Made by a program: the position numbers and the translations under genes. From contig NZ_JACHOB010000001.1 of the NCBI RefSeq assembly GCF_014199615.1, forward strand, positions 558,001 through 622,000: 64,000 nt of DNA, written 5' to 3'. Source of the stretch: Parvularcula dongshanensis. GTDB taxonomy: Bacteria; Pseudomonadota; Alphaproteobacteria; Caulobacterales; Parvularculaceae. Within the stretch, counting starts at the first letter, position 1. Each line of letters begins with the position of its first letter. The notes beneath the pieces are model-generated. The model saw only the letters and a list, made by a program, of their open reading frames with translations, did no database searches and had not been told where the DNA came from. Positions 7,427-31,523 of this stretch are shown here, one piece after another.

Positions 7427-9300
7427 GCCGCACTGCTCGCACTGCGGCGGTGGGCATCCTTCTTTCTTAGAGCAATCAGGAGGATGGCGAGGGCCGAAGG
7501 TGTCATGCCCTCCATCCGGCGTGCTTGACCAAGCGTTTCAGGGCGCGTAGCGACGAGACGATTTCTCACCTCGTTCGAGAGGCCGGAGACGGCATTGAAG
7601 TCGAACTCGGCAGGGATGGCCAACCCTTCGTTTCGGGCGACGTCTGCTATCTCTTCCTCCTGGCGGTCTAAGTAGCCAGCATAAAGAGCGTCCGCTTCAA
7701 GGAGCGTACGGATGTTCGGGTCGAGGTCGTTTAATTCGGGCCACATACGGGAGAGTTGAGAGACCGATTGACCGGGAAGTCCCAGCAGATCCAGAATGTT
7801 GCGGCGGCGGCCGTCCTGATTGACCTGAATACCGGCTTCGACCGCTTCCTGCGGGGTGAGATTGGTTCGCGTTGCCCAGGCACGGGCGTCGGCGATCTTA
7901 TCTTGTTTCACGTGAAACGCTTGAAGGCGTTCCTTCGAAAGCAAGCCAATCTCCGCCCCCAAGGGTGACAGCCGTTGGTCGGCATTATCAGCGCGGAGGG
8001 ACAGACGGTACTCGGCCCTCGATGTGAACATCCGATAGGGTTCCGTTACGCCCTGCGTCACGAGATCATCGATCATCACCCCTAGGTAGGCTTCGTGTCG
8101 ACCCAGGGTGAACGCTTCTCGACCGAGGGCCGAGAGGGCAGCATTTGTACCGGCAAGAAGCCCCTGCCCGGCCGCTTCCTCATAGCCCGTCGTTCCGTTG
8201 ATCTGCCCTGCGAGATAGAGACCCGGCGCGGACCGGACCTCAAGCGTACGCGCCAAGGCTCTCGGATCGATATAATCGTACTCGATCGCGTATCCGTACT
8301 GAACGATCTTGACCCACTCGAGGCCCGATATCGTTCGGATGAAGCTGTCCTGCACGTCAGCCGGTAGAGAGGTCGAGATGCCGTTCGGGTACACGACCGG
8401 ACTATCGAGGCCCTCGGGTTCCAGGAAGACTTGGTGCGCGGTCTTGTCCGCGAAGCGTACGACCTTGTCTTCGATCGACGGGCAATAGCGGGGCCCGCGG
8501 CCCGTGATCGCACCGCCATAAACGGCCGAACGAGCGAGATTTTCCGAAATGATCTTGTGGGTCGTACCGCTGGTGTACGTTATTCCACATGAAACCTGCG
8601 GGACCGCTATTTCGCGGGTCAGGAAGGAGAAAGGAACGAGCTGATCGTCGGCAGCTTGCTTCTCTATTCGGTCCCAAGCGATCGTGTTGCCATCTAGACG
8701 GGCCGGGGTGCCTGTCTTCAGGCGACCGAGAGGAAGCGAGAGCCTATCCAAGGCATCCCCTAAGGCGTTCGCTGGCTTATCGCCGACCCGGCCCGCAGGT
8801 ACCCGTTCATCGCCGCGATGAATCATTCCGCGCAGGAACGTACCAGCAGTCAGAACGACGCACTCTGCCTGGACTGTCGTGCCGTCGGCAAGAACTACGC
8901 CCTGGCAACGGCCGTTCAGCATCTGAAGATCGACTACTTCCGCTTCAATGGTGGTGAGACCTTCGATCGAGGCGATCTCGCGCTGCATCGCCGCCCTGTA
9001 GAGTTTGCGGTCCGCCTGTGCCCTGGGACCCCGCACCGCAGGCCCTTTTGACTGGTTGAGCATACGGAATTGAATGCCGGCCTGGTCGATGACCCTCGCC
9101 ATCAAACCGTCCAGTGCATCGATTTCGCGAACGAGGTGCCCCTTGCCAATCCCACCAATTGCGGGGTTGCACGACATCTCGCCCAAAGCAGATATGCGAT
9201 GGGTGATGAGCAGGGTGTTTGCACCGACGCGGGCAGAGGCCGCGGCGGCTTCGGTTCCGGCATGGCCGCCGCCGATTACGATAACGTCTACGTTCGACAT
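7423..9300 (-). CDS. mnmG: tRNA uridine-5-carboxymethylaminomethyl modification enzyme MnmG (GidA)
   Basis: MnmG is the FAD/NADH-dependent partner of MnmE, making cmnm5U at the tRNA wobble position. The FAD Rossmann motif [20 protein letters not shown] is at the extreme N-terminus, [20 protein letters not shown] near 44-63 and [12 protein letters not shown] later. The length of 625 residues is standard. A perfect-core parS site lies inside the coding sequence at 7904-7919. The upstream gap to mnmE (9301-9393) holds two more parS sites. Codons are visibly less GC-rich than in most of the window. Confidence 0.97.
7904..7919. promoter_or_regulatory. parS site 1 (inside mnmG)
   Basis: TGTTTCACGTGAAACG matches the canonical ParB target TGTTTCACGTGAAACA at 15 of 16 bases and contains the full GTTTCACGTGAAAC palindrome. 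It lies within mnmG, about 1.9 kb from parB and 8 kb from the proposed origin. Confidence 0.93.
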
Positions 9301-9342: not shown

Positions 9343-9358
9343 TGTTTCACGTGGAACA
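9343..9358. promoter_or_regulatory. parS site 2 (mnmE-mnmG intergenic)
   Basis: TGTTTCACGTGGAACA matches consensus parS at 15 of 16 positions (one G for A in the right arm). It lies in the 93-base gap between mnmE and mnmG, with its centre 35 bases from the next parS copy. Confidence 0.9.
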
Positions 9359-9377
9359 AGCAGCGACAGCGACGCCC

Positions 9378-9393
9378 TGTTTCACGTGAAACA
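9378..9393. promoter_or_regulatory. parS site 3 (adjacent to mnmE stop codon)
   Basis: TGTTTCACGTGAAACA is a perfect 16-base match to the bacterial parS consensus. It directly abuts the mnmE TAG stop codon at 9394-9396. Together with the other two copies it marks the partition locus. Confidence 0.95.
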
Positions 9394-14831: not shown

Positions 14832-15887
14832 CTACCCCCGTTCGCGGATATGCGCCACGAGTTCGGCGACATGTTCCGGCGGCGTCTGGGGCACGAAGCC
14901 GTGGCCGAGGTTGAAGACGTGCGGCTTGCCCTCGAAGGCGTCCAGGATCGCGTCCGCCGCCCGCAGCATCGGCGCGCCGCCCCGCACGACGAGAAGCGGG
15001 TCGAGGTTGCCCTGGACGACGGCCTGGGGACTGAGGCGCTCGGCCGCCCAGAGCGGCGGGACGCCCGTGTCGATGCCGACGGCGTCGAAGAGCGGGCTTC
15101 GCGCCGCCGCCTCGTAAAGCGGGCCGGCCCCGCGGGGGAAGGCGATGACCGGCAGGCCCGGCAGTGCCGCCTTCACCCGCTCGGCGATCGCCTCGCATGG
15201 CGCCAGGCACCAGCGGCGGAAGAAGTCCTCCGGTAAGCCCGACGCCCAGGAGTCGAAGAGCTGAACGGCGTCGACCCCCGCCCTGCCCTGCTCGATCAGG
15301 TAGTCCGCGGTCGCGCTGGTGAGGCGCTCCATCAGCCGCGCGAAGTCATCCTCGTTCTCGTAGGCGAAGAGGCGCAGCGCCGACGGATCCTTCACCCCCC
15401 TGCCCGCCAGCATGTAGGTCGCGACGGTCCAAGGGGCGCCCGCGAAGCCGATCAGCGCCTTGTCTCGCGCCAGGCCCGCCCGGACGAGGCGCACGGTCTC
15501 GTAGACCGGGGACAGGGTCCGTGAGAGGTCCGCCTTCGCGGCCGCGTCGAGGAAGCGCGGTAGCGCTTCCGGCGCGGTGGCGAAGGCAGGAGACAGGCGG
15601 GGCCCCTCGCCCTTCTCGAAGCGGACGTCCTGACCCAGGGCCTGCGGGATGAGAAGGATGTCCGCGAAGAGGATGGCGGCATCCAGATCGTAGCGCCTGA
15701 TCGGCTGAAGCGTGACCTCGGCCGCGAGTTCGGGCGCGTAGCAGAGGTCCAGGAAGCTGCCTGCCTTCGCCCGGACGGCCCGGTACTCCGGCAGGTAGCG
15801 CCCTGCCTGCCGCATGAACCAGATGGGTGGCGTCTTCACCGCCCGCCCGGACAGCGTCTCCAGGAACCGCCCTTGGCCGTCTGCCAT
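14832..15887 (-). CDS. hemE: Uroporphyrinogen decarboxylase
   Basis: HemE decarboxylates the four acetate groups of uroporphyrinogen III to give coproporphyrinogen III. The 351 residues start with the family signature PIWFMRQAGRYLPEYRAVRA (catalytic Arg) near 21-40. YDLDAAILFADIL (catalytic Asp), GFAGAPWTVATYMLAGRG and FNLGHGFVPQTPPEHV follow. hemE reading away from the origin is a hallmark of the Caulobacter and Rickettsia ori neighbourhood. Its promoter must lie in the adjoining origin region, so replication initiation and hemE expression could interfere. Confidence 0.98.
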   Translation of the reverse strand: MADGQGRFLETLSGRAVKTPPIWFMRQAGRYLPEYRAVRAKAGSFLDLCYAPELAAEVTLQPIRRYDLDAAILFADILLIPQALGQDVRFEKGEGPRLSPAFATAPEALPRFLDAAAKADLSRTLSPVYETVRLVRAGLARDKALIGFAGAPWTVATYMLAGRGVKDPSALRLFAYENEDDFARLMERLTSATADYLIEQGRAGVDAVQLFDSWASGLPEDFFRRWCLAPCEAIAERVKAALPGLPVIAFPRGAGPLYEAAARSPLFDAVGIDTGVPPLWAAERLSPQAVVQGNLDPLLVVRGGAPMLRAADAILDAFEGKPHVFNLGHGFVPQTPPEHVAELVAHIRERG

Positions 15888-15901
15888 CTCTTAATCCTTT
15901 A

Positions 15902-16011
15902 GAATCAAAATCTGAGTCCGAGTCCTAAGCCGGGGGGGTGTGGGGGAAACCGACGGCATCGTCGCCCTCCCCGCCGGTCCAGGGACTCTTCCCCATATCG
16001 GGGGCGGACTC
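15902..16011. promoter_or_regulatory. Cluster of five GANTC (CcrM methylation) sites
   Basis: GAATC at 15902, GAGTC at 15914 and 15920, and GACTC at 15984 and 16007 give five GANTC sites in 110 bases. Four sit in the extended hexamer GAGTCC/GGACTC. CcrM methylates GANTC in Caulobacter-type bacteria and such sites are enriched at origins there. Confidence 0.75.
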
Positions 16012-16064
16012 GAAAGGCGAGACGAAGCCGGTAGGACCTATGGTCCGACCGACGGTACTCCTAC

Positions 16065-16085
16065 CTCTCCACAGGATGTGGAGAG
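16065..16085. promoter_or_regulatory. Inverted pair of DnaA-box-like nonamers
   Basis: CTCTCCACA (16065-16073) and its exact reverse complement TGTGGAGAG (16077-16085) flank three bases. Each matches the DnaA box TTATCCACA at seven of nine positions including the TCCACA core. No T-run follows, so a terminator reading is less likely. Confidence 0.6.
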
Positions 16086-16094
16086 CGGTTAGGA

Positions 16095-16109
16095 TTAACG
16101 TCTTGGTAA
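16095..16109. promoter_or_regulatory. CtrA-like motif in the putative origin
   Basis: TTAACGTCTTGGTAA fits the CtrA full site TTAA-N7-TTAA with one mismatch (GTAA). It lies ten bases from the DnaA-box-like pair. CtrA represses initiation at Cori in Caulobacter; a role here is inferred. Confidence 0.45.
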
Positions 16110-16199
16110 GGTTTTACAGAACGGCGTTGGGGAGCGCGTCCGCATAATGGGGGCTCGGACGCATAGGCGCCTTCAGGGTTCTCATTAGTCCCCCAAGGG

Positions 16200-16214
16200 T
16201 GAATAACCTCTTAA
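16200..16214. promoter_or_regulatory. CtrA-like motif upstream of the kinase/pyrophosphorylase gene
   Basis: TGAATAACCTCTTAA fits TTAA-N7-TTAA with one mismatch (TGAA). It is 30 bases before the start codon of the next gene, so it could act on that promoter or on the origin. Confidence 0.4.
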
Positions 16215-16244
16215 CGCACCGATCCCGAGGAGGACGAGCCGCTC

Positions 16245-17084
16245 TTGCCCCCGACCAGCCACGCGACCTGGTTTCACGTCCACCTCGTCTCCGACTCCAC
16301 CGGCGAGACGCTGAACACGCTGCTCAAGGCGACGACGGCGCGGTTCGAGACGGCGAAGCCGCTCGAACACGTTGCTTCCCTCGTCCGCAGCCACGTCCAG
16401 CTCGACAAGGTGCTTTCCAGGATCGAGCAGGCGCCGGGCCTCGTCATGTACACGATCGTCGACGCCGGCATGCGGCGGCGGCTCGAGGTGAAGTGCGCGG
16501 AGCTGCAGGTGCCGGCGATCTCGGTACTCGATCCGCTGCTCAACGCCTTCGCGGACTATCTCGGCCTGGAGCAGACCATGCGGGCGGGGGGGCAGTACGA
16601 ACTCGACGAGGACTACTTCCGCAGGATCGCGGCGATCGACTACACGCTCGCTCATGACGACGGCCAGATGACCTGGGACCTCGAGAGCGCGGACGTCGTG
16701 CTGGTCGGGGTCAGCCGGACCTCGAAGACGCCGACCTGCATGTACCTCGCGAACAGGGGCATCAAGGCGGCGAACGTTCCGCTCGTGCCGACAAGCGAAC
16801 CGCCGGGCGAACTCTTCACGGTACGCCACCCGCTCGTCATCGGCCTGAGCGCCAGTCCCGACCGGCTCGCCTCGATCCGGGCGAAGCGTCTCATGGGGCT
16901 CGCCGCGCACCAAGACGCGGAGAGCTATACGGACGAAGCGAGCGTGCGGGACGAGGTCACCCGGGCGAAGCGGCTCTTCACGCAGAACGGCTGGCCAGTG
17001 ATCGACGTCACGCGGCGGTCGGTCGAGGAGACCGCGGCGCGGATCCTCACGCTACTCTCGGCGCGGCGGGGCGGGACCGCATGA
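16245..17084 (+). CDS. ppsR: Kinase/pyrophosphorylase (PEP synthase / PPDK regulatory protein, DUF299; RP001/CC0001-type)
   Basis: Bifunctional regulators of this family phosphorylate a threonine of pyruvate,phosphate dikinase or PEP synthase using ADP, and remove it with phosphate. The 279-residue protein begins FHVHLVSDSTGETLNTLLKA, the family N-terminus, and has the nucleotide loop GVSRTSKTPTCMYLANRG (155-172). The start is TTG at 16245, ten bases after a GAGGAGGA ribosome site at 16227-16234. Which dikinase it controls cannot be told here. It opens a run of overlapping genes (maf, aroE, coaE) leading away from the origin. Confidence 0.94.
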   Translation: MPPTSHATWFHVHLVSDSTGETLNTLLKATTARFETAKPLEHVASLVRSHVQLDKVLSRIEQAPGLVMYTIVDAGMRRRLEVKCAELQVPAISVLDPLLNAFADYLGLEQTMRAGGQYELDEDYFRRIAAIDYTLAHDDGQMTWDLESADVVLVGVSRTSKTPTCMYLANRGIKAANVPLVPTSEPPGELFTVRHPLVIGLSASPDRLASIRAKRLMGLAAHQDAESYTDEASVRDEVTRAKRLFTQNGWPVIDVTRRSVEETAARILTLLSARRGGTA

Positions 17085-17659
17085 AGATCCTGCTCGCGTC
17101 CCAAAGCGCCTCGCGCCGCGCCATCCTGACGAGTGCCGGCATTCCCTTCGAAGCCCGCGCCGCGCACGTGGACGAAGCCGCGGTGAAGGCGAGGCACGAG
17201 GGCGACCCCGCGAGCCTGGCTCTGCGGCTCGCCGAGATGAAGGCGTTGGCCCTACCGGCGCCGGGCGCGCTCGTCGTCGGCGGCGATCAGGTGCTCGAGT
17301 TCGAGGGCCGCGCCTACGACAAGCCCGCTTCGCGCGAAGAGGCGGCCGACAGGCTTTGCGCCATGGCGGGGCGGACGCACTATCTGAGGTCCGGCCTCTG
17401 CCTGGCGCTGGACGGCGCGGTCGTATGGCGCCACGCGTCGTCATCCATGCTGACGATGCGGCCGATGACCCGCCGCGAGGTCGAGGACTACCTGACCGAG
17501 GCGGGCGAGGGGGTTCTGCGCACCGTCGGCGCCTACGAACTCGAGGCGCTCGGGGCGCGCCTCTTCGCGCGGGTCGAGGGCGACTACTTCGCGATCCTGG
17601 GCCTCGACCTCCTGCCGCTGCTCGCCGAACTTCGCCGGCGGGAGGCGCTGCCATGGTGA
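17081..17659 (+). CDS. maf: Maf-family nucleoside triphosphate pyrophosphatase
   Basis: Maf proteins hydrolyse non-canonical or modified nucleotides and have been linked to septum control. The 192 residues open with ILLASQSASRRAILTSAGIP, containing the conserved SxSxxR. PGALVVGGDQVLEF follows with the catalytic Asp, then KPASREEAADRL and the later VGAYELEALGARLF. Sub-specificity (dTTP/UTP, m7GTP or other) is not assigned. It overlaps the upstream gene by four bases (ATGA) and aroE by seven, so translation is probably coupled. Confidence 0.93.
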   Translation: MKILLASQSASRRAILTSAGIPFEARAAHVDEAAVKARHEGDPASLALRLAEMKALALPAPGALVVGGDQVLEFEGRAYDKPASREEAADRLCAMAGRTHYLRSGLCLALDGAVVWRHASSSMLTMRPMTRREVEDYLTEAGEGVLRTVGAYELEALGARLFARVEGDYFAILGLDLLPLLAELRRREALPW

Positions 17660-18456
17660 TCCGCGCCGGCGTCGTCGGTCATCCCATCGCCCACAGCCTG
17701 TCGCCGCGGCTTCACGGCCGATGGCTCGAAAACTACGGCATCGACGGTTCCTACGAGGCGATCGACGGTGGGACCGACTTCGGCGCCGTGATCGAACGGC
17801 TCCGGGAGGCCGGCTTCGCGGGCTGCAACGTCACGCTGCCGTTCAAGGCGGAGGCCGTGCGCCTCGCCGACGAGGTGACGCCGCTCGCAGCGCGCCTCGG
17901 CACGGGGAACACGCTGGTGTTCGCGGGGGGGCGCATCCTCGCCGATAACACCGACGTGTACGGTATGGAACGAGCGCTTCGCCCCCATATGGACGCCCGC
18001 CACCGCACGGCGCTCGTCCTCGGGGCAGGGGGCGTGGCACCGGCTGCCGTCGCCGCGCTTCAGGCGCTCGGCATCGAGAAACTGCGGATCGCGAACCGGA
18101 CCCCTGAGACCGCAGCGGCGCTGGCGGAGCGCTTCGGGCTCGAACCCGTGCTCTGGGCGGCGCGAGACGCGGCGGCGGACACAGACATCCTCGTCAACGC
18201 GACCGCGCTCGGACTGCCCGGCAAGCCGCCGCTGGATGTCTCCCTCGGCCGACTACCCGCGCATGCGGTGGTCATGGACGCCGTCTACACGCCGCAGGGC
18301 ACGGCGCTGATCGATCGGGCGCGGGGCAGGGGGCTGACCGGCGTGGACGGTCTGACCATGCTCGTCCATCAGGCCATACCGGGCTTCGCCCGCTGGTTCG
18401 GCGTCGAGCCGGACGATCCGGATGCGGCCGAAGCGCAGTTGAGGAGCGCGGCATGA
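17653..18456 (+). CDS. aroE: Shikimate dehydrogenase
   Basis: AroE reduces 3-dehydroshikimate with NADPH in aromatic amino acid synthesis. From ATG 17653 the protein has 267 residues: GVVGHPIAHSLSPRLHGRWL (shikimate binding), GCNVTLPFKAEAV with the catalytic Lys, and GNTLVF. The dinucleotide loop VLGAGGVAPAAVAAL and the C-terminal MLVHQAIPGFARWFG follow. The open frame extends upstream to 17356, but that is an out-of-frame part of maf. Overlaps with maf and coaE (ATGA) indicate an operon. Confidence 0.96.
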   Translation: MVIRAGVVGHPIAHSLSPRLHGRWLENYGIDGSYEAIDGGTDFGAVIERLREAGFAGCNVTLPFKAEAVRLADEVTPLAARLGTGNTLVFAGGRILADNTDVYGMERALRPHMDARHRTALVLGAGGVAPAAVAALQALGIEKLRIANRTPETAAALAERFGLEPVLWAARDAAADTDILVNATALGLPGKPPLDVSLGRLPAHAVVMDAVYTPQGTALIDRARGRGLTGVDGLTMLVHQAIPGFARWFGVEPDDPDAAEAQLRSAA

Positions 18457-31472: not shown

Positions 31473-31523
31473 ACGAGGCCAAGATAAGGCGGAAATCCTT
31501 CCGCGGCGAGCGTTAACGGGCGA

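Follow-up and report, generated by a model that had tools for sequence, protein, structure and literature searches.

The 357-bp gap between the divergent genes hemE and ppsR is very probably the oriC of this Parvularcula, the one site at which its chromosome starts to replicate. We assign the location with high confidence; the binding of proteins there is predicted from site patterns, and the putative control signals in the gap appear weak and partly rearranged. The stretch analysed, hereafter the window, is 64 kb long (C1:558001–622000) and belongs to the 3.13-Mb, 16-contig genome of Parvularcula dongshanensis, a marine relative of Caulobacter, hereafter the home genome; coordinates without a contig or genome label are window positions. 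An origin between hemE and RP001 is a known kind in Alphaproteobacteria, here at the expected address and now placed by independent evidence, in a family for which we found no origin paper among the matches listed from the open-licence literature. The excerpts available from PMC2877005 and PMC12700997 contained nothing on Parvularcula origins. The interest of the case lies in the mapping resolution, the turnover of CtrA sites and an unexplained 9-mer.

Family matches confirmed the gene arrangement described in the sequence-only reading, a gene-free divergent region with hemE on one side and an RP001-type kinase gene, maf, aroE, coaE and dnaQ on the other. The right-hand gene matches the PPDK/PEP-synthase regulator family and corresponds to RP001/COG1806 of the literature. 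To the left of the gap lie rho, mnmE, gidA, rsmG, parA and parB (the names mnmE, parA and parB were assigned from translations). The gap was AT-richer than its surroundings, with 59% GC versus 71% in the flanking genes, and the parS sequence placed about 8 kb away proved to be three sites, 6.5–8.0 kb from the gap. The main features of the locus are:

7904–7919: third parS site (0–1 mismatch)
9343–9393, plus strand: parS, two sites (9343 and 9378; 0–1 mismatch), with parA- and parB-like genes to the left
14832–15887, minus strand: hemE, left boundary gene (TIGR01464, 387 bits)
15888–16244, no strand: hemE-ppsR divergent gap, predicted chromosomal origin (polarity switch, relatives and gene order)
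16245–17084, plus strand: ppsR (RP001/COG1806/DUF299), right boundary gene (PRK05339, 331 bits)

The same arrangement is widespread in relatives. We found ppsR in 99 of 99 genomes searched (home counted), with the closest named match in Parvularcula oceani JLT2013 (best segment 89% identical). hemE and ppsR were divergent in 108 of the 110 loci examined (home counted), the remaining two being cut by contig ends.

Strand polarity diverges at the gap. The octamer GGGNAGGG is KOPS, which guides FtsK in E. coli. We sampled 20 stretches of 20 kb from contig C1 plus the window, together 464 kb of this 1.17-Mb contig, so that the home polarity results describe C1, one of the 16 contigs. Copies of the octamer, which was also counted in PMC2680272 according to the part of that paper available, were strongly polar in this sample (11 plus and 66 minus left of the gap, 60 plus and 16 minus right of it). 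They pointed leftward on the left and rightward on the right, and 127 of 154 fit one switch, the gap's own site included. The best switch point ran from C1:573965, inside the gap, to C1:576023 (window 15965–18023), with a score of 100 compared with a maximum of 52 in 2000 permutations; adjacent switch points, out to 573398 and 576324, were 1.5 log units worse. Since the rest of this interval is ppsR, maf and the start of aroE, the hemE-ppsR gap is its only non-coding stretch. Control patterns, comprising five letter rearrangements of the octamer and one similar pattern, switched elsewhere and weakly (59%–69% agreement). Polarity of a KOPS-like octamer can resolve an origin to the kilobase scale in a high-GC genome with nearly flat skew. 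As a separate observation, of the 8-mers with 25 or more leading copies in the C1 sample, GGGCAGGG was the most strand-polar (67 leading, 11 lagging) and is a candidate for the motif that guides FtsK in Parvularcula.

GC skew in the home genome was weak and irregular. A minimum of cumulative GC skew at the gap had been suggested as a check, and the sampled minimum lay near C1:380000, about 190 kb away, so in the home genome this test counts against the call. Stretch skews around that minimum were near zero, and the lowest cumulative point in the window's first 36 kb was C1:569001, 5 kb left of the gap. We rejected GC skew alone as an origin locator for the home genome, as it was too weak and had its minimum elsewhere.

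Both signals switch at the hemE-ppsR gap in two same-genus, single-contig genomes that we sampled like the home genome (G003 and G005). In G003, each of the 11 regularly spaced stretches between 1 and 1.56 Mb had positive GC skew, and each of the nine between 1.69 and 2.95 Mb had negative skew. The octamer (GGGYAGGG) switched there at 3003842–3005796, with 57 of 61 sites in agreement, and the gap lies at about 3004290–3004663. In G005, skew stayed below zero over the arc that starts at 2.32 Mb and ends at 0.745 Mb; it was above zero between 0.87 and 2.195 Mb, apart from stretch 1160001. The octamer was less polar in this genome (47 of 61 sites agreeing) and bracketed the gap, at about 808187–808580, only loosely, with a switch at 801841–876172 that widened to 740242–880518 when near-best fits were included. 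The skew-minimum check succeeded in both relatives, where the lowest 1-kb points within the 20-kb stretches around the gaps were 3005001 (G003) and 808001 (G005), no more than about 0.4 kb from the gap. In G019 and G029, the 20 kb surrounding the gap contained no GGGYAGGG, and all three octamer sites around the gap of G028 pointed one way, so these three genomes add no support by the octamer test. Overall, the polarity switch in the home genome and two relatives supports the probable origin that the sequence-only reading had placed between hemE and the RP001 gene.

Site counts support the origin call, would not make it alone and do not mark the gap as a clear outlier. The pre-set count combined DnaA-like (at most two mismatches), CtrA-like (at most one) and GANTC sites in 370-bp windows, a length quoted for like-for-like comparison, as true gap lengths were 357–394 bp. 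The home gap had the highest count in the sampled part of the contig by a narrow margin, ranking first of 2484 windows with nine sites. The G005 gap was first of 2310 windows (eight sites, next seven) and the G003 gap joint first of 2310 (seven, equalled at 941946). With the 9-bp motif GGTATGRCC (at most two mismatches) added, the top windows had 12 sites in the home genome (next 9), 14 in G005 (next outside the gap 11) and 13 in G003 (joint with 1551286), but the motif itself had been discovered in these gaps.

The origin might instead lie beside dnaA (C1:308883), as in many bacteria. The region upstream of dnaA, where a better cluster would have spoken against the gap, came second in the pre-set count, with eight sites to the gap's nine. 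Six of these are GANTC, the highest number in any of the 2484 sampled 370-bp windows (C1:309991–310545), and a CtrA-like palindrome lies at C1:310224; the home sampled minimum of cumulative GC skew is also nearer dnaA than the gap. However, the GANTC count and the palindrome suggest CcrM/CtrA control of dnaA, and a dnaA promoter under such control would account for the sites. The octamer, moreover, shows no polarity switch around dnaA, where it is one-directional (0 plus and 8 minus, 1 and 8, and 0 and 3 in the stretches from 240001, 300001 and 360001). The distance from dnaA to the gap is 265 kb in the home genome, about 660 kb in G003 and about 594 kb in G005, and in both relatives it is at the gap that the polarity switches. 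We therefore regard an origin at dnaA as extremely improbable.

The gap could instead be no more than the divergent promoter region of hemE and ppsR, under CtrA/CcrM-type control, with the origin elsewhere. It must hold two promoters, its hemE-side AT-rich sequence and TTAA sites would suit one, and conserved gene order does not in itself prove an origin. This reading is nonetheless very unlikely given that polarity switches within about 2 kb, in an interval without any other non-coding stretch, and does so at the same gap in two relatives. A milder departure is that the origin lies within the right few kilobases and its functional core reaches into, or lies within, hemE or ppsR. The polarity interval also spans ppsR, maf and the start of aroE, as this would allow, but across relatives the flanking genes are much poorer in DnaA-, CtrA- and W-box-like sites, and we consider an extended core unlikely.

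For the gap itself, the preferred origin, the putative functional sites in the home genome are:

15888–15930, no strand: AT-rich patch of lowest stability, a candidate unwinding element (an alternative starts at 16082)
15902–15924: GANTC cluster (15902, 15914 and 15920; further sites at 15984 and 16007), candidate CcrM methylation sites
15939–15949, minus strand: degenerate DnaA/W-box-like site TTTCCCCCACA (profile hit, genus alignment)
15990–15995, plus strand: W-box-like hexamer TCCCCA (second copy at 16128–16133, minus strand)
16030–16065, no strand: GGTATGACC-like array, with GGTAGGACC at 16030, GGTCGGACC at 16042 on the minus strand and a third degenerate copy, recognised by eye, from 16054
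16065–16085, no strand: perfect inverted pair of weak DnaA-box-like 9-mers CTCTCCACA with a 3-bp spacer
16095–16109, plus strand: CtrA-like site TTAACGTCTTGGTAA, one mismatch, 9 bp from the box pair and in the same place in L004
16198, minus strand: DnaA-like site TTATTCACC, overlapping the CtrA-like site at 16200
16200–16214, plus strand: CtrA-like site TGAATAACCTCTTAA, one mismatch, overlapping TTATTCACC

The inverted pair of DnaA-box-like sequences reported earlier is present, with CTCTCCACA at 16065 (plus) and 16077 (minus), each matching TTATCCACA at seven of nine positions. The home gap contained three DnaA-like sites with at most two mismatches, compared with 0.44 in shuffled sequence, and 0.5% of 200 shuffles reached three. 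These putative boxes are weak (7/9). No TTATCCACA site with one mismatch or fewer occurred in the gap or in the 64-kb window, and TTATTCACC alone reached 8/9 to the looser TTATNCACA. Among nine aligned genus loci, only that of the nearest relative, L004, had a recognisable counterpart of the inverted pair. The hexamer TCCCCA is the W-box consensus of the Caulobacter crescentus origin (Cori) in the available part of PMC4285127. The CtrA-like motifs were also borne out, as TTAA-N7-TTAA with one mismatch at 16095 and 16200 (two sites versus 0.09 shuffled); the only other such site in the window was at 31513, and L004 carries both gap sites at the same 105-bp distance. The clustering of GANTC stood in part: five sites lie in the hemE-side half of the gap, versus 2.1 in shuffles, and are borderline from the home genome alone because 5.5% of shuffles reach five. 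Within the gap, stability was lowest for the 40-mer starting at 15890, and no 40-mer in the window, sampled every 10 bases, was as unstable. The IHF consensus WATCAN5WTR, taken from the portion of PMC1914354 available, had no match in the home gap and six matches over 30 gaps, versus 2.8 shuffled.

Comparison with relatives yielded a testable map of the gap: an AT-rich block on the hemE side, usually marked by GANTC, CtrA sites that shift between genera, and a family-enriched 9-bp element. From the 110 loci entered, two without hemE (contig ends) and 14 identical gaps were removed, leaving 94 distinct gaps, 46 from Parvularculaceae and 48 others (mostly Caulobacteraceae, including Euryhalocaulis), with families classed by record titles and search rank, not by a tree. 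Gap ends were set by BLAST match ends, and L002, a repeat of the window, was excluded. We used dinucleotide shuffles for motif counts in the home gap (200 shuffles) and in the 30-gap set (15); single-base shuffles for position tests in the 46 and 48 gaps, for element pairs and the other-gap analysis and for counts in 370-bp windows; and two-base-block shuffles for the held-out element test.

CtrA-like, GANTC and W-box-like sites were enriched across relatives' gaps, and the flanking genes had far fewer DnaA-, CtrA- and W-box-like sites. Thirty Parvularculaceae gaps contained 24 DnaA-like sites with at most one mismatch (2.2 in dinucleotide shuffles), 62 CtrA-like sites with at most one mismatch (7.1) and 94 GANTC sites (55). 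In 41 of the 46 Parvularculaceae gaps and 45 of the 48 others, the least stable 40-mer fell within the third nearest hemE. GANTC occurred within 120 bp of hemE in 42 of the 46 (shuffle mean 17) and in 31 of the 48 (shuffle mean also 17). In several genus loci, a DnaA-like box that is degenerate in the home genome stands about 20 bp beyond a GAGTC; at the position of the home site at 15939, the sequence is TTATCCACA in L005 and TTACCCACA in L008, L010, L011 and L074. The place of the CtrA site shifts: it is on the ppsR side in the home genome and L004, and in many gaps of another genus, g2, the AT-rich patch near hemE carries two or three TTAA-N7-TTAA sites that overlap at a spacing of about 10 bp. 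The G003 gap had no CtrA site with one mismatch or fewer. In L016, L020 and L024–L026, among others, the overlapping TTAA-N7-TTAA sites are triple, a CtrA-type array denser than that of the home gap. Gaps of the same g2 genus (for example, L020 and L024) also carry a conserved CTGGGCGCC element beside a GGTATGAC site; CTGGGCGCC is frequent in other-family gaps too, with only mild enrichment over coding sequence.

These site patterns, read alongside Cori, suggest how DnaA opening, CtrA repression and CcrM timing may operate at the gap. DnaA would nucleate on the weak inverted pair at 16065–16085 and on the W-box-like sites (15939, 15990 and 16128), and would open an AT-rich patch, either on the hemE side (15888–15930) or from 16082. 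Binding of CtrA at 16095 and 16200 would keep DnaA off the boxes that adjoin or overlap these sites, and methylation by CcrM at the five GANTC sites would serve as a mark of the replicated state. ParABS, acting at parS 6.5–8 kb away, would move new origins apart, and the GGTATGACC-like array may be the site for a further origin regulator. The home genome encodes GcrA and a RAMA-domain protein (CcrM type).

We compared the gap with the origins of Caulobacter crescentus, Hyphomonas neptunium and Rickettsia prowazekii through their published descriptions. Cori shares the hemE-RP001/COG1806 flanks and, in the available parts of PMC4468827, PMC4285127 and PMC1914354, weak DnaA boxes that include TCCCCA W-box-like sites, CtrA-like sites beside or overlapping DnaA boxes, and parS within about 8 kb. 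The gaps of Caulobacteraceae relatives are likewise AT-rich in the hemE-side third. In contrast to Cori, the home gap lacks a TGATCCACA G-box at one mismatch or fewer and the IHF consensus, and its dnaA is 265 kb away. We make no claim that the home gap belongs to the CtrA/IHF-controlled subtype that Cori represents. Cori has five CtrA sites, as far as these excerpts describe it, and the home gap has two one-mismatch sites, both on the ppsR side. According to the part of PMC4468827 available, some marine Caulobacter origins probably came to use CtrA independently. A further difference from Cori is the enrichment of GGTATGACC-like elements in Parvularculaceae gaps. Hyphomonas neptunium has a measured copy-number (marker-frequency) peak close to hemE and parAB about 7 kb from it, and there, too, the origin could not be placed clearly from GC skew, dnaA or DnaA sites (PMC6650430, in the text available); its origin was measured experimentally, whereas the home origin is placed by computation. 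Rickettsia prowazekii shares the boundary genes, and its gap is comparable in length at 384 bp (excerpts of PMC1914354), but its genome is AT-rich.

The 9-bp element GGTAKGRCC (GGTATGACC) was enriched in Parvularculaceae gaps. With at most one mismatch, it occurred 72 times in 30 gaps, compared with 8.9 in shuffles and 14.9 in an equal length of flanking genes. A profile found 130 sites in 45 of 46 Parvularculaceae gaps; we note that profiles were scored on their own training gaps, except in a held-out test that trained on 36 other gaps and was applied to 10 Parvularcula gaps. Density in that test was 5.4 per kb in gaps versus 0.9 in flanks and 0.5 in shuffles, and five of the 10 gaps were singly beyond 5% of shuffles, the home gap not among them. 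The home copies are degenerate and, taken alone, do not exceed chance (one site, reached by 25% of shuffles). Among site pairs at most 40 bp apart, 20 of 42 were spaced 9 or 11 bp. The top cluster in the G005 sample was in that genome's gap, and the G003 gap had a joint top one in its own sample, with none such in the home gap. In the 48 other gaps the profile gave 1.8 versus 0.4 sites per kb, possibly via cross-matching to GGGGATGA-type W-boxes.

Several extensions of this pattern were rejected. The element did not behave as an abundant genome-wide one, since counts of CGGTATGRCYGG (at most one mismatch) in four genomes were not above those of the reversed pattern. Four clusters of GGTATGRCC-like sites outside the home gap, near C1:677, 755, 844 and 963 kb, overlap long open frames and were therefore set aside as probably coding. 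Autoregulation of a stand-alone DnaA_C gene by GGTATGACC was also discarded, as sites at the home locus did not exceed 9 and those at the loci of four relatives did not exceed 12.4. The element resembles a GntR/FadR-type operator (GGT-N3-ACC). We found no literature describing it, and among the papers listed for the 9-mer and its complement no title concerned a bacterial origin. We tentatively propose, as a possibility short of an even chance, that GGTAKGRCC is an undescribed Parvularculaceae origin element, with copies often 9 or 11 bp apart, that binds a regulator other than DnaA and CtrA, a changed DnaA or a stand-alone domain-IV protein, and that would, in this lineage, share initiation control with CtrA sites, which in the home genome and L004 lie on the gap's other side.

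Parvularcula DnaA (C1:308409–309356, and in relatives) has a diverged ATPase domain, scoring 97–100 bits to PF00308; scores in seven genomes from other families of the order were 114–223 bits. It keeps the RDHTTV motif in DNA-binding domain IV, in keeping with TTATCCACA-like boxes; two G086 rows, which were wrong-frame translations, were left out of the domain comparison. Within the home genome, the DnaA ATPase domain was found in dnaA only. A literature match for domain-IV-only DnaA concerned Epsilonproteobacteria. In the home genome, C1:1062768–1062953 marks a small protein (open frame of about 160 aa) with the DnaA domain-IV helix-turn-helix and RERTTV in place of RDHTTV. This protein was also present in seven of the other nine genomes searched, and it could compete with DnaA for boxes.
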